Origin: a virus
Virus record (IMG/VR): IMGVR_UViG_3300036944_000945
Coordinates: 1-43,882 of that record
DNA: 43,882 nucleotides
Direction: 5' to 3' (one strand)
Part shown: piece by piece, positions 1,131-22,957 of the stretch
Numbering within the stretch: position 1 is the first letter of the stretch
How the letters are laid out: the number at the start of each line of letters is the position of its first letter
The notes under the pieces: generated by a model
What the model saw: only the letters and a program-made list of their open reading frames with translations
Database searches by the model: none
What the model was told of the DNA's origin: nothing
Made by a program: the position numbers and the translations under genes

Positions 1131-1448
1131 TCACGCGCGCTTCTTAAAGGTCTCGATGATTGCCAGAACCTGCGCGCGATCCTCGGCCGGAACCGCCATG
1201 ACGGCGTCCAGAAATGACGTGTCCATATCGTATGGGTCGTGATCCAACAGGAAGCCGGGCGTGGTTCCGAGAGCGGGTGCCAGTCTCAGCAGCCATTTAT
1301 GGGACAGTCCGCGCTCGCCGCTCTCGAGCAAGCCGATCACGTTGCCGGCGGTGCCAATCGAATCGGCAAGCTGTTCCTGGGTCATGCGCCGGAACTCCCT
1401 CCATGCGCGGAGGTGGTTTGCGGCGAGCTTTACGGGCGATCTGGCCAT
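1131..1448 (-). CDS. CI-like repressor, XRE-family helix-turn-helix
   Basis: The protein has a classic XRE helix-turn-helix: LRAWREFRRMTQEQLADSIG then NVIGLLESGERGLSHKWLLR, followed by a hydrophobic APALGTTPGFLL segment. There is no LexA-type cleavable peptidase domain, so it is a short repressor whose induction must work without self-cleavage. It is transcribed away from the Cro-like gene and flanked by repeated operators, which supports a role in maintaining lysogeny. I chose the ATG at 1448 because an operator palindrome (1463-1477) would otherwise lie inside the gene. ATGs at 1484 and 1571 are in frame, and none of the three has a clear Shine-Dalgarno sequence. Confidence 0.85.
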   Translation of the reverse strand: MARSPVKLAANHLRAWREFRRMTQEQLADSIGTAGNVIGLLESGERGLSHKWLLRLAPALGTTPGFLLDHDPYDMDTSFLDAVMAVPAEDRAQVLAIIETFKKRA

Positions 1449-1462
1449 GCGCTGACTGGTAG

Positions 1463-1477
1463 ATCGCAGGCTGCGAT
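1463..1477. promoter_or_regulatory. Operator palindrome near the repressor start (ATCGCA-N3-TGCGAT)
   Basis: This perfect inverted repeat shares the TCGCA-N3-TGCGA core with the sites at 1059 and 1519. It sits 15 bp upstream of the preferred repressor start, a position suited to autoregulation. Confidence 0.6.
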
Positions 1478-1507
1478 CGTCCATGTCGATTTTGCGAGGA
1501 TTAAGCC

Positions 1508-1536
1508 TTGCCGTTAACCTCGCATTCTGCGATGTT
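1508..1536 (+). promoter_or_regulatory. Putative rightward early promoter (PR-like)
   Basis: A possible -35 TTGCCG (1508-1513) and a weak -10 GATGTT (1531-1536) are 17 bp apart and overlap the operator at 1519-1533. Transcription would begin near the ATG at 1543, giving an almost leaderless cro mRNA. That would explain the lack of a ribosome-binding site. The match to consensus is weak. Confidence 0.3.
1519..1533. promoter_or_regulatory. Operator in the repressor/cro intergenic region (CTCGCA-N3-TGCGAT)
   Basis: One half matches the OL1 half-site exactly and the other differs at one base. It lies just before the Cro-like gene, where bound repressor would block rightward early transcription. 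An extra half-site TGCGAG lies at 1493-1498. Confidence 0.6.
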
Positions 1537-1542
1537 TCAAAT

Positions 1543-1749
1543 ATGGACAACGTCGATCCCTCATTTGCCAAGCAGTTACAGGACAGCGGCGTCGCCCGTG
1601 GCGGCTATGCCTACGACATTGCCAACGGCCGTCGCGTTCCGAACCAGAAGCTGGCTCTCCGCATATTCCGTGCCACCGGCCGCAAGATCGGGCCCATCGC
1701 CAATCTGCCGGACGAGACCATTGCTGTTCTTGAGCAGGTGTCTCTGTGA
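1543..1749 (+). CDS. Cro-like (YdaS-type) DNA-binding protein (68 aa)
   Basis: The 68-residue protein contains a compact helix-turn-helix, GYAYDIANGRRVPNQKLALR, followed by IFRATGRKIGPIANL. This resembles Cro/YdaS-type phage regulators, which typically have an A-Y-x-I-A-N-G-R core. It is divergent from the CI-like repressor and starts the replication operon, the normal place for a Cro protein. The start at 1543 has no Shine-Dalgarno sequence. It presumably binds the TCGCA-N3-TGCGA operators and favours lytic growth. Binding is inferred, not shown. Confidence 0.75.
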   Translation: MDNVDPSFAKQLQDSGVARGGYAYDIANGRRVPNQKLALRIFRATGRKIGPIANLPDETIAVLEQVSL

Positions 1750-3699: not shown

Positions 3700-3918
3700 A
3701 TGACCGAACAACTGCGTCCTGTCGACACCGACTACGCCGCCGACCTCGCGGCCCGCATCCAGCCCCATCAACCCCAGATCGACCTGCTCACTCAGGTCGC
3801 CGACATCGTCCGCCAAGCCAAGGTCGAGTTCCAGGGCGGATATGCCGTCGCCGCTCGCCTCGAGATCACGCAGGCACAGCGCCTGCTGGACCGCGCGTTT
3901 CATGGCGAGGCGGTTTGA
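3700..3918 (+). CDS. Hypothetical early protein (72 aa)
   Basis: This small, acidic, helical protein follows a GCAGGAGCC ribosome-binding site and overlaps the next gene by TGATG. Two helices are likely (PQIDLLTQVADIVRQAKVEF and AVAARLEITQAQRLLDRAF). No known motif is visible. Its place between the DUF669 and exonuclease genes suggests an accessory role in DNA metabolism, but that is only context. Confidence 0.7.
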   Translation: MTEQLRPVDTDYAADLAARIQPHQPQIDLLTQVADIVRQAKVEFQGGYAVAARLEITQAQRLLDRAFHGEAV

Positions 3919-4205
3919 TGACGGTCGCAGCTACCACCACGTTTGAGGTCGAGATCGACTTGTCCGGCTCGCTCCAGCCCGGCGAGCGCCGGACGCTCAA
4001 CGACCCCGGACATGATGCCTTTGTGGATGACGTCGAGGTCGAGGGCGTGTTTGGCCTGCGCCGCGTCGACGGCAAATGGCTCCGCGTCAGCCTCACGGCA
4101 GGCATGGACCCTGCGTCCCCCTGCACGAAGGCATTTCTGGCGAACGTCGCGGACTACCTGGGCGATGACGCGGACGATGCATTGCTCGCGGCAGGTTCCG
4201 AATGA
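3918..4205 (+). CDS. Hypothetical early protein (95 aa)
   Basis: The ATG at 3918 overlaps the previous stop (TGATG), and the end overlaps the next gene by ATGA, so it is translationally coupled on both sides. The sequence looks like a small beta-rich domain (FEVEIDLSGSLQPGERRTL, then VEGVFGLRRVDGKWLRVSL) with an acidic C-terminus. I do not recognise a family. Confidence 0.7.
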   Translation: MTVAATTTFEVEIDLSGSLQPGERRTLNDPGHDAFVDDVEVEGVFGLRRVDGKWLRVSLTAGMDPASPCTKAFLANVADYLGDDADDALLAAGSE

Positions 4206-5134
4206 CCGCGCTCCCCGTCACCATCCCCGCAACCGCCCGCGCGATCTTCGCCGCGCTGGAAAGCAAACAGCGCCGCGACATGCACCCGCGCCTTGCCGCG
4301 TCGGGCCTGGGTGGCTGCGAGCGGCAACAGTGGGACAAGTTCCGCTGGCTGTTCCCGGCTGAGATTTTTGACGCCCAGAAGCTCTCGATCTTTGAGACCG
4401 GCGAGCACTGGGAGACCCGCCTCGTTCAGCGGCTCCACGACGCCGGCATGATCGTCTCTGACCTCGACCCTGAGACGGGCGAGCAATGGCGCATCGTGTT
4501 CGCAGGTGGCCACGCATCCGGCCGCACCGACGGCAAAGTGATGGGCGTGCCTGAGGCACCGAAGACCATGCACGTCTTCGAGGCCAAGAGCATGAACGAC
4601 CGCGCGTTCAAGGCGCTGCTCAAGGCGGGCTGCGTTCGCGAGGGCAAGCCTGAGCATTTCGCCCAGGTTCAGACCTACCTGCACTGTCAGGGCCTGACGC
4701 GGGCGCTGTATCTTGGCGTCAACAAGAACACGGACGAACTGTACTGCGAGCGCATCGAGTACGACGCCCTGTTCGCCACTCAGTTGATGCTGAAGGCCGA
4801 GCGCATCGTCACCTCTGATCGCCGCCCCGCCTGTAGCTGCCCGGTCTATTTCCTCAAGGCTGGCTACGGCTGCGCTCCGAACGACGGGCTCATGCCGGCG
4901 AGGACTTGCAGGTCGTGCATGTTCAGCACAGCGTCGCTCGCGGGCGATGCGCTCTGGATATGCGAGCGCCACAACCGCGAGCTTGCGCTTGAGGAGCAGC
5001 GCGTCGGTTGCCCCCAGCACATGATGAACCCAACCGCGGTTCCGGGCGAGCAAATCGACGCCGCCGAAGACGGCTCGTGGGTCATGTACCGCCTGCCCGA
5101 CGGGTCTGTCTGGAAAGACGGAGGCCAAGCATGA
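4202..5134 (+). CDS. PD-(D/E)XK exonuclease, RecB/Cas4-like, with Cys cluster
   Basis: The nuclease core is visible as GRTDGKV (D at residue 110), FEAKS (126-130, the E-x-K motif) and QVQTYL (155-160), the order expected of RecB-type PD-(D/E)XK nucleases. A Cys-rich C-terminal region (C211, C213, C224, C236, C239, C254, C270) plus C40 could hold an iron-sulphur cluster or zinc, as in Cas4/AddB-type nucleases. It probably resects DNA ends for annealing recombination with the upstream ATPase and DUF669 protein. The start overlaps the previous gene by ATGA. Confidence 0.83.
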   Translation: MTALPVTIPATARAIFAALESKQRRDMHPRLAASGLGGCERQQWDKFRWLFPAEIFDAQKLSIFETGEHWETRLVQRLHDAGMIVSDLDPETGEQWRIVFAGGHASGRTDGKVMGVPEAPKTMHVFEAKSMNDRAFKALLKAGCVREGKPEHFAQVQTYLHCQGLTRALYLGVNKNTDELYCERIEYDALFATQLMLKAERIVTSDRRPACSCPVYFLKAGYGCAPNDGLMPARTCRSCMFSTASLAGDALWICERHNRELALEEQRVGCPQHMMNPTAVPGEQIDAAEDGSWVMYRLPDGSVWKDGGQA

Positions 5135-5643: not shown

Positions 5644-7268
5644 CCACTCTCCGCCCGTACCAATCCGCCGCCATCGACTCCGTCCTCAACTACTGGACCG
5701 CGGGCGGCGGCAACCCCCTCGTCGACATGGCGACCGGCCTCGGCAAGTCCGTGACGATCGGCGACCTGACGCAGCGGCTCATGGGCGCCTACCCCCAGAT
5801 GCGCGTGCTCATGCTCGTGCATGTGCGGGAGTTGGTTGCCCAGAACGCCAAGGCGCTGCTCTCCCTCTGGCCGCAAGCCCCTGTCGGCATCTACTCGGCG
5901 GGTCTCGGCCGGCGCGACACCTCGCAGCGGATCATCTTCGCCAGCATCCAGTCGGTGTATCGCCGCGCCAAGGAGTTGGGCGCGTTCGACCTGGTGCTGA
6001 TCGACGAGGCGCATCTCGTGCCGTCGGCGGGCGAGGGCATGTACCGCGCGCTGCTCACCGGCCTGCGTGAGATGCGGCCGGACCTGCGCGTTGCAGGCTT
6101 CACCGCCACACCGTTCCGCATGGACACCGGCCGCCTCGACGACGGCAACGATCGCCTGTTCGACGAGATCGTCTATTCGTACGGCATCGGCAAAGGCATC
6201 GACGACGGCTGGCTGTCGCCGTTGGTGTCGAAGCGGGGCGCGACTGAGATCGACGTGTCCTCCGTGGCCAAGCGGGGCGGGGAGTTCGTCTCCGGCGCGC
6301 TTGAGGCCGCGGCGGACAACGATGTCGTCACCCGCGCCGCGGTGTCGGAGATCATCGAGTACGGGCAGGGGCGTCGATCCTGGCTGACGTTCTGCGCCGG
6401 CGTGAAGCACGCGCACCATGTCCGTGACGAGTTCGTGCGGCAGGGCGTGTCGTGCGAGGTCATCTCCGGCGAGACGGATGCCGGGTCGCGGTCGAAGTTC
6501 ATCGACGACTTCAAGGCTGGGCGGCTGCGGTGCCTGACTAACTGCAACGTCCTGACGACCGGGTTCGACGCTCCCGGCCTCGACATGATCGCGCTGCTGC
6601 GTCCGACCCTCTCGCCGGGCCTGCTCGTGCAGATGCTCGGCCGCGGCACGCGACTGGCGGACGGCAAGACCGACTGTTTGGTTTTGGATTACACGGGGAC
6701 GATACGTCGCCTCGGCCCCGTCGACACGCTCACCGTCGACCGGCGGCCCGGCAAGAAGGGTGCGCCTGACGCGGCGAAGATCTCGGACGTCCGCGCCAAG
6801 GAATGCCCCACCTGCAAGTCCCTCGCCGCGCTCAACGCCCAGACGTGCGCTTTCTGTGGCCACGAATGGACGCTCGACAAGGCCCGGCATGACGCGGAGG
6901 CGGACGACGTCGCGATCCTCAGCCGGGATCTGAAGGCTCAGGCGCCGGAGGAGATCGCGGTCGTGACCTGGATGGCGCGTCGGCACGTGAAGGCCGGATC
7001 GCCGGATTCGCTCAGGGTGACCTACTCGGCGGGGCTGATGTCGTACCCCGAATGGATACTCCTGCAGCATTCGGGGCCCGGTCGATACCGCGCCGAGAAG
7101 TGGTGGCAGGCGCATGGCGGGAAGTTTCCGGTGCCTGACACGGTCGAGGAAAGCCTCGTGCGTTGGAGCGAGCTTTCGCAGCCCGCCTTCATTGGAATCC
7201 AAAAGAACGGCAAGTGGCACAACATTGTGTCCCGCCGCTTCACTCAATCACAGGAGCAAGCGGCATGA
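5640..7268 (+). CDS. Superfamily 2 DNA helicase (DEAH type)
   Basis: Motifs appear in order: RPYQSAAI (Q-like motif), DMATGLGKSV (Walker A, residues 29-38), LIDEAHL (motif II, DEAH), GFTATPFRMD (motif III), LTTGFDAPGLD (motif V) and QMLGRGTRLAD (motif VI). This is the RadD/phage SF2 helicase group, which also has a C-terminal zinc ribbon, here CPTCKSLAALNAQTCAFC. The enzyme would unwind or remodel DNA during replication or recombination. The start at 5640 overlaps the HNH stop by ATGA. Confidence 0.92.
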   Translation: MTTLRPYQSAAIDSVLNYWTAGGGNPLVDMATGLGKSVTIGDLTQRLMGAYPQMRVLMLVHVRELVAQNAKALLSLWPQAPVGIYSAGLGRRDTSQRIIFASIQSVYRRAKELGAFDLVLIDEAHLVPSAGEGMYRALLTGLREMRPDLRVAGFTATPFRMDTGRLDDGNDRLFDEIVYSYGIGKGIDDGWLSPLVSKRGATEIDVSSVAKRGGEFVSGALEAAADNDVVTRAAVSEIIEYGQGRRSWLTFCAGVKHAHHVRDEFVRQGVSCEVISGETDAGSRSKFIDDFKAGRLRCLTNCNVLTTGFDAPGLDMIALLRPTLSPGLLVQMLGRGTRLADGKTDCLVLDYTGTIRRLGPVDTLTVDRRPGKKGAPDAAKISDVRAKECPTCKSLAALNAQTCAFCGHEWTLDKARHDAEADDVAILSRDLKAQAPEEIAVVTWMARRHVKAGSPDSLRVTYSAGLMSYPEWILLQHSGPGRYRAEKWWQAHGGKFPVPDTVEESLVRWSELSQPAFIGIQKNGKWHNIVSRRFTQSQEQAA

Positions 7269-7639
7269 CGCCGAACGAAGAAACCCTCCGCGCTGAGGTC
7301 GAGTACCTGCGCGCTCAACTGGCTGGCCTGACCGGCAGTATCGACTACCAGTCGCGCCTCCGCATGGAGTTTGGCCTGACGCCCAAGCAGGCAGGCATCC
7401 TCGCCCTGTTCATGAACACGTCGCGGCCCGTGTCGCAGTCGATCGTTTACTCGAACGTCTATGAATATCCGGGCGGCGACGGGCCTGAGTTCCCCATCGT
7501 CAAAGTCGGCATCTCACAACTGCGCCGCAAACTGGCGTCGTTCAAGGCGCCCGGCCGCATCGCCAACTCCTACGGGACCGGCACCTATCAACTGTCCGAC
7601 GACCTGCGCGCCTGGGTGGCGGAAAGGGTCGCGGCATGA
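7265..7639 (+). CDS. OmpR/CtrA-type winged-helix DNA-binding protein without a receiver domain
   Basis: After a short helical N-terminus (residues 5-22), residues about 35-110 form a trans-reg-C winged helix: LTPKQAGILALFM, then IVKVGISQLRRKLASF as recognition helix, then YGTGTYQL as the wing. In alphaproteobacteria this pattern is closest in layout to the CtrA DNA-binding domain (IIDVFICKLRKKL, WGRGY), but there is no phospho-receiver domain. It lies directly upstream of a GcrA homologue with an ATGA overlap. A role as a phage transcription factor that competes at OmpR/CtrA-type sites is an inference. Confidence 0.75.
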   Translation: MTPNEETLRAEVEYLRAQLAGLTGSIDYQSRLRMEFGLTPKQAGILALFMNTSRPVSQSIVYSNVYEYPGGDGPEFPIVKVGISQLRRKLASFKAPGRIANSYGTGTYQLSDDLRAWVAERVAA

Positions 7640-8097
7640 CCGGCTGGAACGAGGGAACCGCGCGCGATCTGTGGCGAGAGGGCAAGTCGGCGACTGAGAT
7701 CGCCATGTACTTGGGCATGACCCGGAACGCTGTGTGCGGGCGGCTGTGGCGCATGGGCCTGAAGCGCGAGGGTCCGGCATCGTATGGCATCCGCCAGCGC
7801 GCGGTGCCCAAGCCGCCGCGCGTCAAGAAGTTCAAGGTGGTCAAGCCGGTGAAGCTGGCCAAGCCTGCGCGCGTTGAGGCGGTTGTCGTGGTGCCGGTCG
7901 TCATCGACATCATGGCCGCGCGACCGTTCCTGTCGCGGACCATGCACGAGTGCTCGTGGATTCTCGAAGGCGGCGATGCGTGCTGCAATCCGGTTGACGG
8001 CAACGGAAGCTACTGCGCCGGCCACCGCGCGATCGTCTATCGCCCGACGGGCAAGCCCAAAGACTACGAGCGGTCCCTGCGGAGGTACGTCGCATGA
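7636..8097 (+). CDS. gcrA: GcrA-family cell-cycle regulator homologue
   Basis: The N-terminus aligns well with GcrA: MTGWNEGTARDLWREGKSAT, then EIAMYLGMTRNAVCGRLWRM (compare the GcrA pattern W-x-x-G-x-S-A-x-x-I-A and T-R-N-A-V-x-G). A Lys/Pro/Val-rich linker follows. The C-terminal domain keeps the GcrA Cys-His pattern (C106, C116/C117, C127, H130) and the Y-x-P ending. Host GcrA binds sigma70-RNA polymerase and activates promoters carrying CcrM-methylated GANTC. A phage copy could retarget polymerase to methylated phage sites such as those at 14400-14578. The retargeting is inference; family membership is firm. Confidence 0.88.
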   Translation: MTGWNEGTARDLWREGKSATEIAMYLGMTRNAVCGRLWRMGLKREGPASYGIRQRAVPKPPRVKKFKVVKPVKLAKPARVEAVVVVPVVIDIMAARPFLSRTMHECSWILEGGDACCNPVDGNGSYCAGHRAIVYRPTGKPKDYERSLRRYVA

Positions 8098-8264: not shown

Positions 8265-8467
8265 TGCAGTTTCTCACACTCGACGACATCAAGCGCGCGT
8301 CCGAGATCGGCGGCGCGCACCTCGACGCACTGGGCAAGTTCGACCTGCGCACCCTGTCCGCGGACGAGTACGTCACCTTCTGCCTGATCATCGTCAATGA
8401 GGCGAACAAGGCCGCGGGCGACCGCATCGTGTCGGCGTGGACGATTCCGGTGGGGGGTCTGGGGTGA
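8264..8467 (+). CDS. Hypothetical small protein (67 aa)
   Basis: The ATG at 8264 overlaps the previous stop by one base. A GTG three bases earlier is an alternative start. The protein is helical and acidic at the start (FLTLDDIKRASEIGGAHLD) and ends GGLG, overlapping the primase start by GTGA. Function is unknown. Its place directly before the primase suggests a replication accessory role. Confidence 0.68.
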   Translation: MQFLTLDDIKRASEIGGAHLDALGKFDLRTLSADEYVTFCLIIVNEANKAAGDRIVSAWTIPVGGLG

Positions 8468-10875
8468 GTTCTCCCTTCTCCGCATCTGCCTCCGACCTGC
8501 AGGCGCTCGGCTACTCTGTCCTGCCGCTGATCCCGGCGGACTGGGCCCAGCACCAGGGTCGCGGGAAATGCCCCGGCGAGTATCGCTCGGGCGGCTGGAA
8601 GGGCATGTCCAAGTGGCAACGGTTCCGTGACACCACGCCGTCGGCGTTCGAGTTGGGGCTGTGGGCCAAGGCGCCGGGCGCGAACATCGGCCTGCTCATG
8701 GGCACGGTGGCGCGCAAGGATCTGCACGTCGTCGTTCTGGATTTTGACGCCCAGGACGCCGACGTGCTGGACACCCTGCTGCGCTCGGCACCCGCGAGTC
8801 CGATGGTCAAGCGTGGCGCAAAGGGCGAGAGCCGGTTCTATCTGGCACCCAAGACGCTGAAGACCGCCTCGTACGACGGGCCCGACGGGCGCCTGCTCGA
8901 TCGCCTGACCGGGTTCGACACGCGCCAGACCGTCGTGCCGCCGTCGATCCACCCGGAAACCGGCAAGCCCTACGTCTGGCTGGCCGGGCCCGTGCGCGCG
9001 GACGAGTTGCCCGTCCTGACAGATGACGACATGACGGCGCTGGAGGAGGCGCTGGAGGTGTGCGGGTGGTCGCGGGAGCGTGTGTCGGCCGGCAAGGATC
9101 GTGCGCCGCGCGCCCCACGTTGCGGCGAGATCGACCCCGATGACATTTGGTCTGAGACGAAGGCGGCGGCGCTTTCTCACCTAGACCAGTGGGTGCCGGC
9201 GCTCGACCTGTACGGATGCAGGCCTGCACGCGGCGGGTTTGAGGCGGTCGCTACATGGCGGGCGTCCAGCACCGGGCAGGCGAACCCGGACCGCAAGCGC
9301 AACCTCTCGATCCAGCGCGACGGCATCAAGGATTTTGGTACGAACGAGACCTATTCGGCGATCGACCTGGTGATGGCCGCTCGGGACTGCGAGCAAGCGG
9401 CGGCGACGGACTGGCTGCGTGAGCGACTGGGCCTGAAGGATGACAGCGTGGTGATCGCGCTCGATATGCCGACGGTGGGCAACGACGACCTGCCTGAGCC
9501 TTTGCGCCCCGTGCCCGTTATCACCCTGCAGGAGTTCGCGGACACGGTGGTCGCGCCCGCTATGGACCGGCTCAAGGTCGAGCACCCTGAATACGCAGAC
9601 GCCCCGCCCGCAACGCCCACCTCCGAGCTTCCCGACGCGCTCACCCGCGCACCCGGCCTTGTCGGCTCGATCACGGACTGGATCTGCGATACGGCGCGCA
9701 AGCCTCAGCGTGCCGGCGCGCTCATGGCGGCGCTTGAGATCGTCGGAACGGCTGCAGGACGCACGTTTTCGGGCCCTACACGCACCGGAACGCACCTGTA
9801 TGGGCTGTTTCTGGCACCGTCTGGCGCGGCCAAGGATCACCCGCTCAAGGCGATCGACCGCGTGCTGCGTGCGGCAACGCTCGGCGCGCATGTCGGGCCC
9901 GGCGAGTTCATGTCCATGTCGGCGCTGGTCTCGCGTCTCAATCGCCAGCCGCTCACGCTCACCTGCATTGACGAGTTCGGCGGCTATCTCGGCCGGATCA
10001 ATGGGCGCAAGGCCTCGCCGCATGAGAAGGCGATCACCCGCACCCTGCGCTCGGCCTGGGGCTCCAGTTTCGACACGATGGCCACGCCTGAATGGGCGGG
10101 CAGGGTAGGGGAGCCGATCTTTTCACCCGCCCTCTCGATCTACGGCGTGTCCACGCACGAGGAGTTCTTCGCCAACCTCGACGGCGCGGACGTGTTCAAC
10201 GGCTTCCTCAATCGCTTTCTGATTTTCTCGACGCACGCCCGTGTTGAGGAGCGCGAGCCGCTGCTGGACAAGACCGCCGTGCCGGATGCGATCGTTGACG
10301 GGCTGGTCGCGATCGTTGCGTCCCTGCCTCCGCTCAGTCGCGCCACCTCGCACAACTCCGCCTCGGACGGCCCCTCGATCGTTGTGCCTTGGGACGACAA
10401 GTATGCGCACCAGGCCTACATGGCATTCGGGCAGGAGTGTGAGCGGCGCGAGCAGGACGCGGTGTTCTTCACCCGCTCGGCGGAGATGGCGCAGCGCATG
10501 GCCACGATCAGGGCGATCGGTCGCGACGGCGCCGCGGCAAAGGTCACGCTCGAGGACATGGACTGGGGTATCGCGCTCGCACGGTGGTCCGCGGAACAGA
10601 CGGTCGAGATGGCCTCGGATTATATGGCCGAGACGCAGCACCAGGGCGAGGCGCAGCGTGTCATTCGTGCGCTGCAGGGGCGCGGCTGGATGACGTTCCG
10701 GGAAATATCCCAGTCGCTCAAGAACCGGCTGAAGGCAAAGGAGTTGCGCGACATGCTGGACGGCCTTGTCGATGGCGGGGATCTGGACCGGCGCGAGGAT
10801 CAGCCGCCGGCAGGGGGGCACAAGATCAAGTCGTATCGCGTGTCCGTCGAGCGGCCGTCTCCCGGCGCGTCCTGA
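8464..10875 (+). CDS. Bifunctional primase-polymerase fused to a DUF3987-like helicase region
   Basis: The N-terminal domain matches the prim-pol family: a basic, Trp-containing region (residues about 35-55), then GANIGLLMG and the metal-binding VLDFDAQDAD (aspartates at 93 and 95). The second half resembles DUF3987 phage helicase/primase proteins, with a P-loop-like LAPSGAAKDHP and a Walker B-like CIDEFGGYL. The Walker A lysine is followed by Asp rather than Ser/Thr, which is unusual and could affect ATP use. At 803 residues it is the main replication protein of the phage. The GTG start at 8464 overlaps the previous stop (GTGA). Confidence 0.87.
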   Translation: MSSPFSASASDLQALGYSVLPLIPADWAQHQGRGKCPGEYRSGGWKGMSKWQRFRDTTPSAFELGLWAKAPGANIGLLMGTVARKDLHVVVLDFDAQDADVLDTLLRSAPASPMVKRGAKGESRFYLAPKTLKTASYDGPDGRLLDRLTGFDTRQTVVPPSIHPETGKPYVWLAGPVRADELPVLTDDDMTALEEALEVCGWSRERVSAGKDRAPRAPRCGEIDPDDIWSETKAAALSHLDQWVPALDLYGCRPARGGFEAVATWRASSTGQANPDRKRNLSIQRDGIKDFGTNETYSAIDLVMAARDCEQAAATDWLRERLGLKDDSVVIALDMPTVGNDDLPEPLRPVPVITLQEFADTVVAPAMDRLKVEHPEYADAPPATPTSELPDALTRAPGLVGSITDWICDTARKPQRAGALMAALEIVGTAAGRTFSGPTRTGTHLYGLFLAPSGAAKDHPLKAIDRVLRAATLGAHVGPGEFMSMSALVSRLNRQPLTLTCIDEFGGYLGRINGRKASPHEKAITRTLRSAWGSSFDTMATPEWAGRVGEPIFSPALSIYGVSTHEEFFANLDGADVFNGFLNRFLIFSTHARVEEREPLLDKTAVPDAIVDGLVAIVASLPPLSRATSHNSASDGPSIVVPWDDKYAHQAYMAFGQECERREQDAVFFTRSAEMAQRMATIRAIGRDGAAAKVTLEDMDWGIALARWSAEQTVEMASDYMAETQHQGEAQRVIRALQGRGWMTFREISQSLKNRLKAKELRDMLDGLVDGGDLDRREDQPPAGGHKIKSYRVSVERPSPGAS

Positions 10876-10901
10876 TTCGCGATCAGTTTCCGCCCAAGCA
10901 A

Positions 10902-10941
10902 AAGGCCCGGCCGGTGATTTCACCAGTCGGGCCTTGGTTTT
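10902..10941. terminator. Bidirectional Rho-independent terminator between convergent operons
   Basis: Outer arms AAGGCCCG (10902-10909) and CGGGCCTT (10928-10935), plus inner arms GGTGA and TCACC, form a long stem. A T-run (GGTTTTCT) follows on one side and an A-run precedes it on the other, so it can stop both the rightward replication operon and the leftward accessory operon. Confidence 0.82.
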
Positions 10942-10971
10942 CTGATCACGGTTCGCGCCGGCACGCGCGGT

Positions 10972-11172
10972 TCAGTCAGGCTGCGAGTCCTGTGCGCGCG
11001 CGCAGGCGATCGCGGCCCGGATCGCGGCCTGCAGCGTGCCATGCCGGGCGATCAGGGAGTCGAGATCGGCCGCCATATCAGGCGAGGCGCGAAACGTGAC
11101 CTTGCGCCACCCCTCGCCCTGTAGCTTCGATTCATGGGCGGCTGCAGCCTTGCGCCGGGCGGGGCTATTCAT
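10972..11172 (-). CDS. Small basic protein, possible ribbon-helix-helix DNA-binding protein (66 aa)
   Basis: The N-terminus is Lys/Arg-rich (ARRKAAAAHESKL). A WRKVTFRASPDMAADLDSLI segment follows that looks like a ribbon-helix-helix strand and first helix, with TLQAAIRAAIACAR as the second helix. It is the last gene of the leftward island and overlaps the XRE gene by 8 bases. A transcriptional or antitoxin-type regulator is plausible. The family match is structural impression only. Confidence 0.65.
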   Translation of the reverse strand: MNSPARRKAAAAHESKLQGEGWRKVTFRASPDMAADLDSLIARHGTLQAAIRAAIACARAQDSQPD

Positions 11173-11386
11173 TGCGCCAACCGTCCGGCCGGAAGCCGGT
11201 TAGGAATGCCTCAACACACACTGTGACGGGCCCGGATATGTCGCGGGCGCCGGACTCCATATCCCGCACGCGGTCCGGCCCCTTTGTCTCGACCTGGGCA
11301 AGGCGCAAGGCGCGCGCCATATCGCGGAGGGACCATCCCAGGCGGAGGCGCGCGGCCTTTAGATCGGCGGGCGTGGTGATCGTCAA
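11165..11386 (-). CDS. XRE-family regulator at the end of the accessory island (Aca-like position)
   Basis: The 73-residue protein has a helix-turn-helix: LKAARLRLGWSLRDMARALR, then DRVRDMESGARDISGPVTV. Small HTH genes at the end of phage anti-defence operons (aca genes) repress those operons by binding inverted repeats near the promoter. The three transcription units here each have an inverted repeat just before the first gene, which fits that model. Aca identity is not proven: XRE proteins are common. The overlap with the upstream gene is four bases (ATGA). Confidence 0.72.
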   Translation of the reverse strand: MTITTPADLKAARLRLGWSLRDMARALRLAQVETKGPDRVRDMESGARDISGPVTVCVEAFLTGFRPDGWRNE

Positions 11387-11625
11387 AACAGACTCCCCTG
11401 ATTCATGGCCGTTTCATCCCATAGGCCGCCACAAGGCAAGCCTGCAGCCCCTCGCCTTGCCTCGCGCCGGGCGCGCTCTTGTGCGAGTTGGCGAGCGGTT
11501 AGAGGGACGGCCGCGACACCGGGAATCAGGGATTGATCCGCCGCGCCGTCGGCTAGGGTTACAGTTTCGGAGGCGGGGTTAACCGCCTCCGAGTCGTTGC
11601 GCATAGCCCAGGCTGCTAGGTTCAT
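11383..11625 (-). CDS. Hypothetical protein (80 aa)
   Basis: The ATG at 11625 overlaps the upstream stop (TGATG). A GTG at 11628 is an alternative. The middle is an Arg/Ala-rich helix (LTARQLAQERARREARRGAA), and the C-terminus is GLPCGGLWDETAMNQGSLF. No known domain is visible. It is coupled in the leftward accessory operon. Confidence 0.6.
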   Translation of the reverse strand: MNLAAWAMRNDSEAVNPASETVTLADGAADQSLIPGVAAVPLTARQLAQERARREARRGAAGLPCGGLWDETAMNQGSLF

Positions 11626-12338
11626 CACCGCACCTGCAGGGTATGGGACTCGGCGCCCGTCATAGCGTCAACGAATCGGATTGTGCGAACCGGCTCAACA
11701 ATCGGCGCATCCTCCGGCCACGTTTCCGCATAGACCGAGTCATAATCCTCCGGTTCCGGTTCAACGTATGGCGCCCAGTCCGACTCGGCCGGATAGCAGG
11801 GCGTTCCGCTGATCTCGCGCTCAATCGCCTCTAACAGGGCACCAACGCCCAGACGGTGCAATTCGTCATCCCGATCCGCGCCCATGCCCAGTGACGGCGA
11901 CGCATAGCCGGACACATAGCCGCGCTCGCAAGCGAGATCGGCCGCATAGTCGAGCGCCAACCCCTGATCCGTCACTAGCTTGCGCCGGAATGCGCCGCGA
12001 CGGTGCCATAGATGCGCGCCCATTGCCTGCAGATCGCCGCCGGTATCGCGAAGGCCGCCCGCCCGTGACAGAAACTCGCAAAGGGACATAGGGGCGCGCT
12101 CCGGCTTCACCGGCGCCGGTGCGGGCGTGATGCCCTGCAGGGCGTTTGCAAGGGCTTTGGCCGCTATGCGCCAGTCGGCGCGCTTGTGTGTCGTCTGGGC
12201 GGTCTCAAAGGCCTGCCGGGCGGCCTTGTCCGTCACAAGGGGGGCGAGGGCATGACAGGCCACGCGCCAGCGTTTGCGCGCGCCCGGTTGTCCGGCGCCG
12301 GATTCGGCGGCCTGATAGAGTTTGAGGGCGGGGCTCAT
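11625..12338 (-). CDS. Hypothetical protein with a polyvalent-protein-like domain (237 aa)
   Basis: The N-terminal 70 residues are helical and basic. The middle segment, MSLCEFLSRAGGLRDTGGDL, then MGAHLWHRRGAFRRKLV and ALDYAADLACERGYV, resembles a domain I associate with large polyvalent proteins of phages and plasmids in alphaproteobacteria. Such proteins are often injected with DNA to counter host defences. The C-terminus is acidic. The resemblance is from memory of the pattern, so function stays open. It sits between a 53-residue gene and an 80-residue gene with overlapping stops. Confidence 0.65.
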   Translation of the reverse strand: MSPALKLYQAAESGAGQPGARKRWRVACHALAPLVTDKAARQAFETAQTTHKRADWRIAAKALANALQGITPAPAPVKPERAPMSLCEFLSRAGGLRDTGGDLQAMGAHLWHRRGAFRRKLVTDQGLALDYAADLACERGYVSGYASPSLGMGADRDDELHRLGVGALLEAIEREISGTPCYPAESDWAPYVEPEPEDYDSVYAETWPEDAPIVEPVRTIRFVDAMTGAESHTLQVR

Positions 12339-12496
12339 TGTCCGGCCTCCGACTCGCGGGCCCGCTCAATCGCCTCCGCCAATGCGTCGCGCTGATATGC
12401 GGTTGACGGGCGGCCTTGTGCGAGATTTTCGGCGAGGCGATCAAGAACGGCCGCCAATGCCGGGCCGGACATTCCGGGCCAATTTGTGTGTGTCAT
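12335..12496 (-). CDS. Hypothetical small protein, first gene of a transcription unit (53 aa)
   Basis: It begins MTHTNWPGMSGPALAAVLDR and forms mostly one long helix (AYQRDALAEAIERARESEAG). A good AAGGAAA ribosome-binding site precedes the ATG at 12496, and the palindrome at 12513-12525 lies just upstream. The end overlaps the 237-residue gene by ATGA. Function is unknown. Confidence 0.62.
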   Translation of the reverse strand: MTHTNWPGMSGPALAAVLDRLAENLAQGRPSTAYQRDALAEAIERARESEAGQ

Positions 12497-12512
12497 AGCG
12501 TTTCCTTTCGGC

Positions 12513-12525
12513 GCCCAGTCTGGGC
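12513..12525. promoter_or_regulatory. Palindrome GCCCAG-T-CTGGGC before the 53-residue gene
   Basis: This perfect 6-bp inverted repeat lies 17 bp upstream of the start. The same palindrome, differing only in the central base, precedes ardA at 13161. It could be an operator for the island's XRE protein or a stem at the 5' end of the mRNA. Confidence 0.6.
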
Positions 12526-12551
12526 AATGCGGACTCTAACCGTCCGGCAAA

Positions 12552-12574
12552 CCCGCCCGCGTGATGCGAGCGGG
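12552..12574 (-). terminator. Hairpin downstream of ardA
   Basis: On the minus strand CCCGCTCG pairs with CGGGCGGG (one G-T pair) around a 7-nt loop, followed by a short T-run (TTTG). It lies just after the ardA stop and separates ardA from the next leftward unit. Confidence 0.5.
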
Positions 12575-12586
12575 AAATCGGGGCGG

Positions 12587-13141
12587 TTAGCGCGAGTGAA
12601 GAACGATGATCCCGGCGCTTGCGCTCGAGACGGTGAAGATCTCGCCGCCTAGACGCATATCCCGCGCCCATGCCTCAAAATCGAAATAGCGCGCCACGTC
12701 GTCCGGGACGCCTTCAAGAAAGCCGGTTTCTTCAAGATAGGACTCGGCCCAGTCGGCGAGGGTGTCGCCTTCGCCCGCGTAACAATCATTCCACCAGTCG
12801 GCGACGTCGACGGAGTCCAGGTCGTCAATCCGTTGCGGACAGACGTTGTCCGTATATGCGTCAAGTGCCGGTTCCGCGTGATCGCCAAGCGACTCGGCGC
12901 TTTCCTCAAAGGCTGCAGCAATGGCTAGGGCGGCGGCGCTCGCATATTCGCCTAGCAGATAGGTGACGGCCTTCGGGCCCTCATAGTCAGCTATAAAGTG
13001 TTCCTCCGCGCCGGGCGTGCCTTTCGCCAGCGCGGACGCGATCATCGCCGCGTTTTCGTCCGCGTCCGTCGAGACGTCGCACCAGTCGCCGACTAGGCGG
13101 CCGTTGTTATAACTGGCAAGGCAACCGATCCATGCACGCAT
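12587..13141 (-). CDS. ardA: ArdA antirestriction protein
   Basis: The sequence has the ArdA hallmarks: IGCLASYNNGRLVGDWCDV at the N-terminus, HFIADYEGPKAVTYLLGEY near the middle, and YAGEGDTLADWAESYLEETG, then DVARYFDFEAWARDM at the C-terminus. At 184 residues it is the usual length. ArdA is an acidic DNA mimic that dimerises and inhibits type I restriction-modification enzymes, protecting incoming DNA. The ATG at 13141 follows a GGAGAG ribosome-binding site. The gene is flanked by hairpins and has its own palindrome upstream, so it is probably a separate transcription unit suited to early expression. Confidence 0.93.
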   Translation of the reverse strand: MRAWIGCLASYNNGRLVGDWCDVSTDADENAAMIASALAKGTPGAEEHFIADYEGPKAVTYLLGEYASAAALAIAAAFEESAESLGDHAEPALDAYTDNVCPQRIDDLDSVDVADWWNDCYAGEGDTLADWAESYLEETGFLEGVPDDVARYFDFEAWARDMRLGGEIFTVSSASAGIIVLHSR

Positions 13142-14315: not shown

Positions 14316-14345
14316 TATATGCCAGCACATATCAGGCCCCGTCAA
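14316..14345 (-). promoter_or_regulatory. Sigma70-like promoter of the accessory island
   Basis: On the minus strand a -35 box TTGACG (14345-14340) and a -10 box CATATA (14321-14316) are separated by 18 bp. This is the best consensus promoter I can see in the window and it points to the 14270 gene. Confidence 0.65.
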
Positions 14346-14391: not shown

Positions 14392-14660
14392 CGAGTGAGG
14401 ATTCAACCTTCCCCACTCGATCCTCACTTGGATAGTCTAGGGTTGCAAAGCGGCCAGCTCACACCTGCAGCGTGGGCAAGTGGGGTCGAGTGAGGACTCG
14501 TGAATCCTCACTCGATATTTCCAGATTCCTCAATCAATCCAGCACCTTCTCTCTCTAAAACCGAGCGAGTGAGGATTCATAGGGGGGGGGTATATATATA
14601 TCGATAAACGATAAGGGGATGGGTATATACTCCCCCGTCCTCACTCGATCGCCTCACTCG
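14392..14660. repeat. Iteron-like cluster: seven copies of GAGTGAGG, candidate origin or packaging site
   Basis: The core (C)GAGTGAGGA lies on the plus strand at 14392-14404, 14487-14499 and 14566-14578. On the minus strand it lies at 14422-14430 (one mismatch), 14502-14514, 14638-14647 and 14652-14660. Two of them form an 11-bp perfect inverted repeat (14486-14496 and 14505-14515). Three copies end in GATTC or GACTC and one minus copy in GAATC, all GANTC methylation sites. There is no gene here. The site is 0.5 kb before the small terminase gene and between divergent operons, so both replication origin and terminase-binding (pac) site are reasonable. Confidence 0.8.
14581..14636. other. AT-rich segment inside the iteron region
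   Basis: A G-run, then TATATATATATCGATAA, a short direct repeat CGATAA, and GGGTATATACTCCCCC form an AT-rich island in otherwise GC-rich DNA. Its ends are partly complementary (GGGGG-TATATA against TATATAC-TCCCCC). It looks like a DNA-unwinding element beside iterons. Confidence 0.55.
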
Positions 14661-14758
14661 ACAAAAAGCGATTACCAGCCGCTAACCCGCAACCCGCATA
14701 TTGACCTTGCGTTGGCGCGCCCCGGTCACTGATCCCGCCCCGTTTACAGGGGGTGACG

Positions 14759-15154
14759 ATGAACCATTGCGAACAGATAGAACCGGCGGCGGAGGCGCGC
14801 CCCGTCCGGTATGCGGACCAGGCCTATCGGATCACCGGCCCCGTCATCGTTCATTCGCGCGCCGATATCGCCAGCCTCCTCCGCGCGCACCGGATCGCCA
14901 GCAATGAGACGTGCGAGCAATTCGACGGGCGAGCTGGATGGTCCGATCGCTACGTGACGAAAGCGGAACACGGTTACAGGGCCCGGATCACCATTGATCC
15001 GCCGTCCGACGCTTCACCTGCTGGCGAGATCGCCCTTTCATTCATGGCGGAGGTTTGGCTCGAGACGGCCGGGATCGCCCTCGTGCTCATGCCTGCAGAG
15101 CTTGCCCAGTCGATCGGCGCGGTTCCGGCGCCTAAGCGGGATTGCACGCGTTGA
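14759..15154 (+). CDS. Putative HTH regulator at the start of the late region (131 aa)
   Basis: Residues about 35-70 look like a helix-turn-helix: DIASLLRAHRIASNETCEQF, then GRAGWSDRYVTKAEHG. The C-terminus is hydrophobic (WLETAGIALVLMPAELAQSI). Proteins with this layout occur in alphaproteobacterial prophages. The ATG at 14759 follows AGGGGGTGA. Located between the iteron region and the terminase, it is a good candidate for a late-gene or iteron-binding regulator. That role is inference. Confidence 0.7.
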   Translation: MNHCEQIEPAAEARPVRYADQAYRITGPVIVHSRADIASLLRAHRIASNETCEQFDGRAGWSDRYVTKAEHGYRARITIDPPSDASPAGEIALSFMAEVWLETAGIALVLMPAELAQSIGAVPAPKRDCTR

Positions 15155-15690
15155 GCGCCGATGCGCACCCGATCATTGACGAAAAGGCGAGGGCGGCCGT
15201 TGCGATTGCACGCGCGCCACAGATTAGGCCGCGATTGCAAGAGGCTTGCACCCTCATTGTGACAGAGGGGCTATCGCAACAAGATGCCGCCCGCCGTGCC
15301 GGTATGACGCCGCACAGTCTCAACGTGGCGATGAAAAAGCCTCACGTTCGGGCGTTCCTTTCCTCTGTCAAACACGCGTGGTTGGAGTCTCGGACGTCCA
15401 AGGCGTGGTTGAACGTGGCCCAGTTGGCCGACTCCGCGTGCTCGGAGGACGTCCGGCTAAAGGCGAACCGAGTATTCCTAGAGGCTGCAGGCGAGCTTGG
15501 CGCGAAGGGTGCGGACCCTAACGCTACGGCCCGGACCCTTGTGCAAATCGTGGTCAATGCGGCGCAAGGCATAGGGCATCTGCCTGCTAGTCAGATGCCC
15601 GGCGTCATAGAAGCCCCGGCGTATCAACCGATTCAGCCGGACACGTCCAACTCATGGGCAGTTGGATGCGATGAGTCGGACGATGGATAG
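15151..15690 (+). CDS. Terminase small subunit-like protein
   Basis: The N-terminal half has a helix-turn-helix, LSQQDAARRAGMTPHSLNVA, followed by KKPHVRAFLSSVKHAWLESR and a helical oligomerisation-type segment (DVRLKANRVFLEAAGELGAK). This order is typical of small terminases that recognise packaging sites. The start is uncertain: TTG at 15151 overlaps the previous stop (TTGA), and TTG at 15142 is also in frame. The iteron cluster 0.5 kb upstream is a natural candidate for its target. The large subunit is unusually far away, at 21332. Confidence 0.75.
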   Translation: MSADAHPIIDEKARAAVAIARAPQIRPRLQEACTLIVTEGLSQQDAARRAGMTPHSLNVAMKKPHVRAFLSSVKHAWLESRTSKAWLNVAQLADSACSEDVRLKANRVFLEAAGELGAKGADPNATARTLVQIVVNAAQGIGHLPASQMPGVIEAPAYQPIQPDTSNSWAVGCDESDDG

Positions 15691-21331: not shown

Positions 21332-22957
21332 ATGGCCCGCAAGGCAGCATCCCAACCACCGCGCGAGCCGATCCGCTTTGAGCCTGATGGCCGCATCCTG
21401 TCGGCGTTCCTGCTTGCGGACAGTGAGTTCGACATCATCCAGGGGCCGATCGGCTCAGGCAAGACGGACGCTGCGATCATGCGGCTGTTCCGGCACGCGA
21501 GCCAGCAGCCGCCGCAGGGCGACAAGGTCCGACGCTCCCGCTTCGCCATCGTCCGCTCGACCTTCCCTGAACTGAAGACGACGACGATCCCCTCGTTCGT
21601 GAACCTGTTTCCAGAGGGCACTGAGGCGCAGGGCGGGTTTGGCGAGATGTCGTGGTCGCCGCCGTTCACCTACCACATGCGCTACGGCGACATGGAGGCC
21701 GAGTTCATCTTCCTTGCGCTGGACAAGGACGACGACGTCAAGAAGCTGCGCTCACTGCAGCTGACCGGGATCTATTTCAACGAGCTTCAGTACATCAGCC
21801 TGATGCTGGTGACCGAGGGGCTGTCGCGTTGCGGCCGCTACCCATCCGTCAAGAACGGCGGGTGCAACTGGTCCGGCGGCATCGCGGACATGAACGCGCC
21901 TGAGAGCCTGCACTGGGCGCCCATCATGTTCGGCAAGGCACCCGTGCCGGACCACTTCACGCCGGACGACGTGCAGAAACACCGACGCCCGCCGGGCTGG
22001 TGCCTGTATGTGCAGCCGCCGGCGCTGCTGGTGCTGGACGATGCGCTGAAAGCCTCCGGGCTGGAGCCGCTGAATCCGGGCGACGAGGTCGAGTATTGCG
22101 TCAACCCCGGCGCCGAGAACCTGCGCTGGCTGCGCCCGGACTATTACCCCAAGAAAATCCACGGGGTGACGCGCCAGTGGATCGACGCCAACTGCCGCAA
22201 CATTGCCGCCAGCCAGATGAAGGGCAAGGCGGTGCACCCGCTGTTCCGCGGGGAGGGCGAGCGCAACAGCCACGTCAGCCCCAACGCGCTCAAGTTCAAT
22301 CCCGAGTTGGAGCTGTATGTCGGCATGGACTTCGGCCTGACGCCGGCAGTCGTGTTTGGCCAGACGATCCGTGGCCGCGTCTTCGTGCTGGGTGAGCTTT
22401 ACGCTGAGGGTGTCGGCGCGGTGAGCTTCGCCCCCGTGGTCAAGCGCGAGATCCTGCGCCGCTTCGGCGGGCTCGACCTGGCGCGCGTCAAGTTCATCGG
22501 CGACCCTGGCAGCGCCATCCGGTCGCAGACCGACGAGCAAACCCCGTTCGACATTTTCCGCCAGCAAGGCATGCCGGTCCGTCCGGCCCCAGGAGCCAAC
22601 CGATTTTCCAAGGTCGGTGGGCGCAAGGAGGTGGTCGACAGCCTGCTCGAGCGACAGGTCGACGGCTACCAGGCGCTGATGATCGACCCCGGCTGCCGCA
22701 TGCTGGTGCAGGGCCTGAGCGGCGGCTACCAGTTCAAGGTCACCAAGTCCTCATTCGGCGAGTTCGTTTCTGACGACGTCGTCAAGAACCAATACAGCCA
22801 CACGGCCGATGCGTTCCAATACCTCCTGCTAGGCATGGGCGAGGGCGGCAACCTGCTGTTTGGGGCGGGCCGCAACACCGCCGCGGTCCAGACAAAGGTG
22901 CAGGCGCGGGTGTTCGACCGAGGCTCGCGCGCGCCGCTGTTCCGGGCCCGGCGATGA
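21332..22957 (+). CDS. terL: Terminase large subunit
   Basis: The ATPase Walker A is GPIGSGKT (residues 38-45), and a Walker B-like strand with an acidic residue is IYFNEL (147-152). The C-terminal nuclease domain begins with YVGMDFGLTPAVV, whose Asp near residue 333 is a metal ligand. At 541 residues it fits short-tailed phage terminases, which package DNA through the portal and cut it. The ATG at 21332 has no Shine-Dalgarno but follows the GTGCGTTGAG motif at the usual spacing. Confidence 0.93.
   Translation: MARKAASQPPREPIRFEPDGRILSAFLLADSEFDIIQGPIGSGKTDAAIMRLFRHASQQPPQGDKVRRSRFAIVRSTFPELKTTTIPSFVNLFPEGTEAQGGFGEMSWSPPFTYHMRYGDMEAEFIFLALDKDDDVKKLRSLQLTGIYFNELQYISLMLVTEGLSRCGRYPSVKNGGCNWSGGIADMNAPESLHWAPIMFGKAPVPDHFTPDDVQKHRRPPGWCLYVQPPALLVLDDALKASGLEPLNPGDEVEYCVNPGAENLRWLRPDYYPKKIHGVTRQWIDANCRNIAASQMKGKAVHPLFRGEGERNSHVSPNALKFNPELELYVGMDFGLTPAVVFGQTIRGRVFVLGELYAEGVGAVSFAPVVKREILRRFGGLDLARVKFIGDPGSAIRSQTDEQTPFDIFRQQGMPVRPAPGANRFSKVGGRKEVVDSLLERQVDGYQALMIDPGCRMLVQGLSGGYQFKVTKSSFGEFVSDDVVKNQYSHTADAFQYLLLGMGEGGNLLFGAGRNTAAVQTKVQARVFDRGSRAPLFRARR

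Follow-up and report, generated by a model that had tools for sequence, protein, structure and literature searches.

An array of short repeats at 14393-14659 of the window, by which we mean the whole 43,882-nucleotide stretch of viral DNA analysed here, is probably an iteron-type origin of replication, a reading to which we give a probability of roughly 85%. It is favoured because the iterons flank the most AT-rich DNA of the window downstream of the gene for a PrimPol-helicase, and because the repeated word changes together with the winged helix of that protein. From these sequence comparisons we infer that the initiator recognises the iterons through its C-terminal winged helix. The cluster of GANTC sites for which the region was singled out in the original prediction is, on the same comparisons, a by-product of the repeated word CGAGTGAGGA and no conserved feature.

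The iteron array and its genomic setting

The word CGAGTGAGGA is present in nine copies, in both orientations, between 14393 and 14659, where shuffled sequence yields at most three. Seven iterons lie to the left and two to the right of a G-run and AT-rich core (GGGGGGGGG TATATATATATCGATAAACGATA ... TATATAC, 14581-14637), which we propose as the unwinding element; the 50-60 base windows with the highest AT content anywhere in the sequence fall within 14510-14641. Relatives (L numbers) were collected from viral contigs, comprising nineteen TerL relatives, 15 primase relatives and others, and the near ones are all metagenomic. The left set opens with iteron 1 (GAGTGAGGA, 14393-14401, plus strand), which has GANTC 14400 at its end and is conserved in L007-L009. 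Iterons 2 (GAGTGGGGA, 14410-14418) and 3 (AAGTGAGGA, 14421-14429) are on the minus strand, each with one mismatch and no GANTC. Iterons 4 (14488-14496, plus strand, GANTC 14495) and 5 (14505-14513, minus strand, GANTC 14502) both read GAGTGAGGA and form a dyad. The degenerate iteron 6 (GATTGAGGA, 14527-14535, minus strand, GANTC 14524) is found in L008 and not in L007 or L009, and iteron 7 (GAGTGAGGA, 14567-14575, plus strand, GANTC 14574) ends the left set and adjoins the G-run. The right set is opened by iteron 8 (GAGTGAGGA, 14638-14646) and continues with iteron 9 (GAGTGAGGC, 14651-14659, one mismatch), both on the minus strand. GC skew gave no consistent mark of the array, its maximum in the window lying opposite the site and the relatives disagreeing; Rfam and tRNA scans gave no match, and no near-identical DNA was found in cultured phages.

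The array lies in the intergenic region between divergently oriented genes of a temperate phage, which has a TerL of phage families and a long late operon. To its left, a plus-strand replication module encodes RusA, Sak4, an SSB-like protein, a Cas4-like exonuclease, a helicase, a CtrA-like winged helix, GcrA and the PrimPol-helicase. The last of these, the proposed initiator (8437-10875, plus strand, 812 aa), combines Prim-Pol (Pfam E 7.7e-16) with a DUF3987-type helicase (E 6.8e-6) and matches the PHROG primase family (E 6.7e-70). Its C-terminal domain (about residues 731-805, 10627-10851, plus strand), the proposed iteron reader, was modelled with AlphaFold2 as a winged helix preceded by a long helix, with a mean pLDDT of 85; this model alone was used, the full-length one having a low-confidence pLDDT of 43. 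The best Foldseek matches of the C-terminal model were winged-helix proteins, none of them below E 0.001. A minus-strand ArdA operon lies between the replication module and the array, so that 3.5 kb separate the initiator gene from the array in the window, a distance that counts against the origin reading. To the right follow an HTH_31-like gene (14753-15154), a small-terminase-like gene (15142-15690) and the late genes, with TerL at 21332. The HTH_31-like protein had no relatives in bacterial genomes.

In the relatives that cover this region, an array lies in the same place around the conserved G-run and AT-rich core and is built from different words: CGAGTGAGGA in the window and L007-L009, CGAGTGAGG in L012, CGAGTGGGA in L050 and L094, CGAGTGGCC in L021, CGAGTGTCAT in L016, CGAGTGTCA in L010, TTTCCACA in L019 and GGTTAGTTA in L093. 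Counting each word in each region gave a nearly block-diagonal table. Most other genomes carry 3-10 copies of the same or other words in the same place, and copy numbers exceed those of shuffled sequence in nearly all relatives; word copies are few or degenerate in L012, L019 and L093, the last with just three, and L059 has no clear repeat in the region.

The position of the array relative to the initiator gene is more direct in other genomes. On a contig of a Brevundimonas metagenome-assembled genome (MAG), it starts about 110 bases 3' of the primase stop codon with nothing between, and in L094 and in the cultured Rhizobiaceae phages described below the proposed origin lies immediately 3' of the initiator gene. 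L044 and L045, which have only the primase in common with the window (43-45% identity), carry CGGTTGTCA and AGTGTCACG arrays flanking an AT-rich core soon 3' of the primase, possibly with one small gene between. In the cultured Sinorhizobium phage AP-16-3 and Rhizobium phage RHph_TM3_3_14B, with primases at about 28% identity, AT-rich DNA directly following the primase gene on its 3' side is surrounded by 8-10 copies of TTGGAATT-like words. NV1.1.1 carries weaker repeats of another word, which do not exceed the shuffle maximum, and Roseobacter phage CRP-902 lacks an intergenic space at this position. In RHph_TM3_3_14B, two methyltransferase genes (L106, 257-1893) lie upstream of the primase.

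Covariation of the word with the winged helix

The comparison of the window with L019 shows the word changing together with one domain. Their DNA is 82-100% identical in the helicase part (9649-10608) and 80-97% identical beyond the winged helix, but only 35-60% identical in the winged helix itself (10609-10863). At the protein level the helicase is 98% identical and the winged helix (last 75 residues) only 19%, and the L019 word, TTTCCACA, is entirely unlike CGAGTGAGGA. Conversely, the last domain of L012 is 100% identical to that of the window and the word is kept, in a shorter and degenerate array. Over 14 genomes, word sharing was correlated with winged-helix identity (rho 0.60, Mantel p 0.0005), the best value among the well-sampled proteins; such correlations over 14 related genomes partly reflect phylogeny and are supportive only. 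The partial correlation persisted when the PrimPol or the helicase domain was controlled for, while the reverse partials were close to zero (-0.05 and 0.18). The match is imperfect: the winged helix of L050 is 85% identical to that of the window, and its word is nearer to that of L094 (68%).

A second natural experiment is provided by L016 and L021. Rightward from the late promoter, L016 is 99.9% identical to L021 and L017 over 15 kb, while the words differ and the left modules are unrelated in detail, with a sharp recombination boundary at the late promoter (about 4860-4880 on the L016 contig, L056; L054 on the L021 contig). The L021 contig (60,786 bases; L059/L092) also holds a second related origin and HTH_31 region, and may be a tandem prophage, a mixed assembly or a chimera; in the relevant part it is matched at 100% identity by the independent contig L017. 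Since the right sides are identical and the words different, the word goes with the replication side, which speaks against a packaging site. The original prediction had offered an origin, a promoter or a packaging switch as alternatives, of which the origin is strongly supported. If the array were a pac or cos site recognised by the small terminase, its position just upstream of that gene (15142-15690) would fit, yet L016 and L021 have different words with identical small-terminase-like and TerL proteins, L008 and L009 share the window's word at 56-59% small-terminase-like identity, and the contigs continue across the site and have no end in common at it; we regard a packaging site as extremely improbable. 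The small terminase is thus eliminated as the reader, as is the HTH_31-like protein (14753-15154), also identical in L016 and L021.

In the divergent intergenic setting of the array, a transcription factor encoded in the left module, for example the CtrA-like protein (7262-7639), might regulate the leftward and rightward promoters from an array of operators, and the identity of the CtrA-like protein does correlate with word sharing (rho 0.54). Against this, L012 retains the word at just 58% CtrA-like identity, arrays lie 3' of the primase in L044, L045 and the Rhizobium phages, whose genomes are otherwise different, and the conserved 11-bp TAACC repeat at 14672 is a better candidate site for an OmpR-type protein. 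We therefore consider an operator array unlikely, and close-pair comparisons do not favour the CtrA-like protein as the reader. This protein is a CtrA/OmpR-like winged helix without a receiver domain (Pfam Trans_reg_C E 1.2e-6), encoded directly upstream of the GcrA homologue; homologues are also found in the L094, L040, L043 and L093 records.

GcrA is not favoured by close-pair comparisons either. Its identity to the window's protein is 81% in L007 and L009 and 79% in L012, which have the same word, and 79% in L019, which has a different one (the L008 contig has a gap at the GcrA and CtrA-like genes). The all-pairs partial rho of 0.76 (9 genomes) is driven by the divergent L010 and L021 proteins; on that correlation alone, GcrA could still be the reader. 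A 72-aa protein (3700-3918), which has no known domain, covaried with the word at first sight, the difference being mainly an N-terminal insertion.

GANTC sites and the methylation hypothesis

GANTC occurs at exactly 14400, 14495, 14502, 14524 and 14574, as the original prediction had listed. Its estimate of an eightfold density was right in direction and assumed one site per 300 bases; the actual background is one per 563, so that five sites in 179 bases are about 16 times the genome average. It had placed four of the sites in iterons: the link holds and the count does not, as all five lie in iteron copies, that at 14524 in the degenerate copy ATTGATTGAGGAATC on the minus strand. Five of the nine copies thus carry the site and four do not. 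In all, the window contains 78 GANTC, where base composition predicts 139 and a second-order Markov model 147. The stretch 14400-14578 proved to be the densest 179 bases, and random placement of 78 sites gave at least five in some 179-base stretch in 1.8% of trials. It is not the only cluster: five sites fall within 200 bases starting at 11591 and 13 within 1 kb starting at 10874, and the cluster at 10874-11786 is wider and denser than that of the iterons. When the region was shuffled with its own dinucleotides, it contained 2.3 GANTC on average and at least five in 8% of cases, so that, given the local composition, the excess is modest.

In each of the nine phage genomes or contigs examined, GANTC is depleted to 0.34-0.68 of the Markov expectation. 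Outside the L007-L009 clade, the relatives have 0-2 sites in the region, and L012 has none. GANTC as the functional unit is rejected on account of this loss, since the array itself stays. The cluster would arise simply where this clade's iteron GAGTGAGGA is followed by TTC or CTC, which happens to spell GANTC at the end.

The original prediction had proposed that CcrM-methylated GANTC, bound by host or phage GcrA, could gate an origin, promoter or packaging site. Several of its elements are present besides the five sites. A phage GcrA homologue was invoked and is encoded at 7636-8097 (plus strand; Pfam GcrA E 2.5e-14), GANTC tails are kept in L007-L009, and the one bacterial assembly that holds a relative, the Brevundimonas MAG, encodes a GcrA and a CcrM with a RAMA domain. 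Methylation of the five sites in the host is likely because this MAG encodes both proteins, the host being assigned indirectly from one binned contig. The presence of CcrM and GcrA in the probable host group and of a phage GcrA homologue, as in phiCbK, resembles GcrA/CcrM regulation in Caulobacterales (PMC7987155, PMC3556154). Unlike GcrA/CcrM-regulated sites, those of the array do not have the extended motif and show no conservation among relatives. This motif, YGAKTCK, is linked to GcrA activation in Caulobacter, no such preference being reported in B. subvibrioides (PMC7987155), and none of the five sites fits it. Relatives with other words have GANTC at background level or lack it, as does L012 despite having the same reader domain and a GcrA, and similarity of GcrA fails to separate same-word from different-word close relatives. 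No N6/N4 methyltransferase domain was found in the phage, and a search of the relative's MAG gave a single GcrA, of full-strength host type. Gating by GcrA and CcrM is, on this evidence, very improbable.

A milder variant retains the iteron origin and supposes that, in this clade, CcrM methylation of GANTC-tailed iterons tunes initiator binding. Dam methylation tunes initiator binding at the P1 plasmid origin. Although GANTC is depleted to 0.53-0.68 of expectation across their genomes, the window, L007, L008 and L009 have five to six such tails, and host CcrM is likely; L012, on the other hand, has the identical winged helix without GANTC, the four iterons without the site also count against tuning, and the excess has P=0.08 given local composition. 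We judge such tuning quite unlikely. A GANTC-rich stretch in the ArdA operon (10873-12896), which holds six of the 16 YGAKTCG motifs of the window, is a better place than the iterons to seek GcrA/CcrM effects.

Comparison with known origins and neighbouring elements

Returning to the proposed iteron origin, its operation would be as follows. The winged helix would bind the iterons and several initiator protomers would assemble as helicase rings on the two iteron sets; the intervening AT-rich core would melt and the helicase load, after which the PrimPol domain would prime bidirectional replication of the phage. Phage P4 alpha protein likewise unites primase, helicase and origin binding in one protein acting with ori/crr iterons, the origin binding being proposed in our case. 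The P4 alpha primase is bacterial-type (Toprim), whereas an archaeo-eukaryotic PrimPol is found here. By analogy, the array may work like the Rep-ori of phage-inducible islands (SaPI/PICI), where the Rep C-terminal domain recognises iterons 3' of its gene in both SaPI and Gram-negative PICI origins (PMC7581432, PMC6092414). The likeness extends to the primase-helicase type of initiator, the proposed origin 3' of the gene and words that vary between elements (PMC6092414, PMC7581432), and to the multiple short iterons in two sets (7 + 2 in the window) that flank an AT-rich region. SaPI and PICI are satellites, whereas these temperate phages have their own terminase and virion genes and are thus no PICI, only similar in the layout of their proposed origin. 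Other differences are the archaeo-eukaryotic PrimPol fused to a DUF3987 helicase, the extra G-run and, in the window, the ArdA operon between gene and origin. Plasmid pRN1, with which P4 has been compared (PMC4234260), encodes in ORF904 an archaeo-eukaryotic PrimPol, a helicase and a C-terminal winged helix in one protein with the origin 3', but its origin is a long stem-loop without iterons and its helicase is SF3 and not DUF3987 (PMC4234260). The PrimPol-DUF3987 class has been predicted, not tested, to be replicative (PMC5862659).

More tentatively, replication specificity in this Caulobacterales phage family might be a swappable cassette, the winged helix and the iteron word being replaced together by recombination while other replication genes and late genes are kept; we hold this to be possible but doubtful. 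If true, sister phages would have mutually incompatible replicons and might, for example, escape origin-hijacking satellites or superinfecting relatives. Temperate alphaproteobacterial phages, like the cultured phages of Rhizobium and Sinorhizobium, have this layout with an archaeo-eukaryotic PrimPol-DUF3987 initiator. From the layout, origins can be predicted for a large class of phage primases, and from the natural domain swap, the residues responsible for reading each iteron; both predictions are testable in cultured phages.

Several elements adjoin the array. Between the origin and the HTH_31-like gene, a TTACC-N6-TAACC direct repeat with 11-bp spacing (14672-14687, plus strand) is followed by TTGCGTTGGCGCGC, and both repeat and region (14672-14720) are kept in nearly all relatives. 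From its sequence, this region looks like an activator-dependent rightward (late) promoter that an OmpR-type protein could bind, adjoining the origin and distinct from it. On the other side, TATATGCCAGCACATA at 14316-14331 forms an imperfect dyad spanning a likely leftward promoter (TTGACG, minus strand) and is the probable operator of the ArdA-side operon; L050 has two copies of it 35 bases apart, and in L016 it is inverted. A CI/HTH_3-like regulator (1131-1571, minus strand), which diverges from the replication operon, is a candidate lysogeny repressor. In L012 (1990-2632) and L054 (about 4150-4567, minus strand), a gene for a winged-helix-like protein replaces the ArdA-side operon beside the array, and the left iteron set is shorter.
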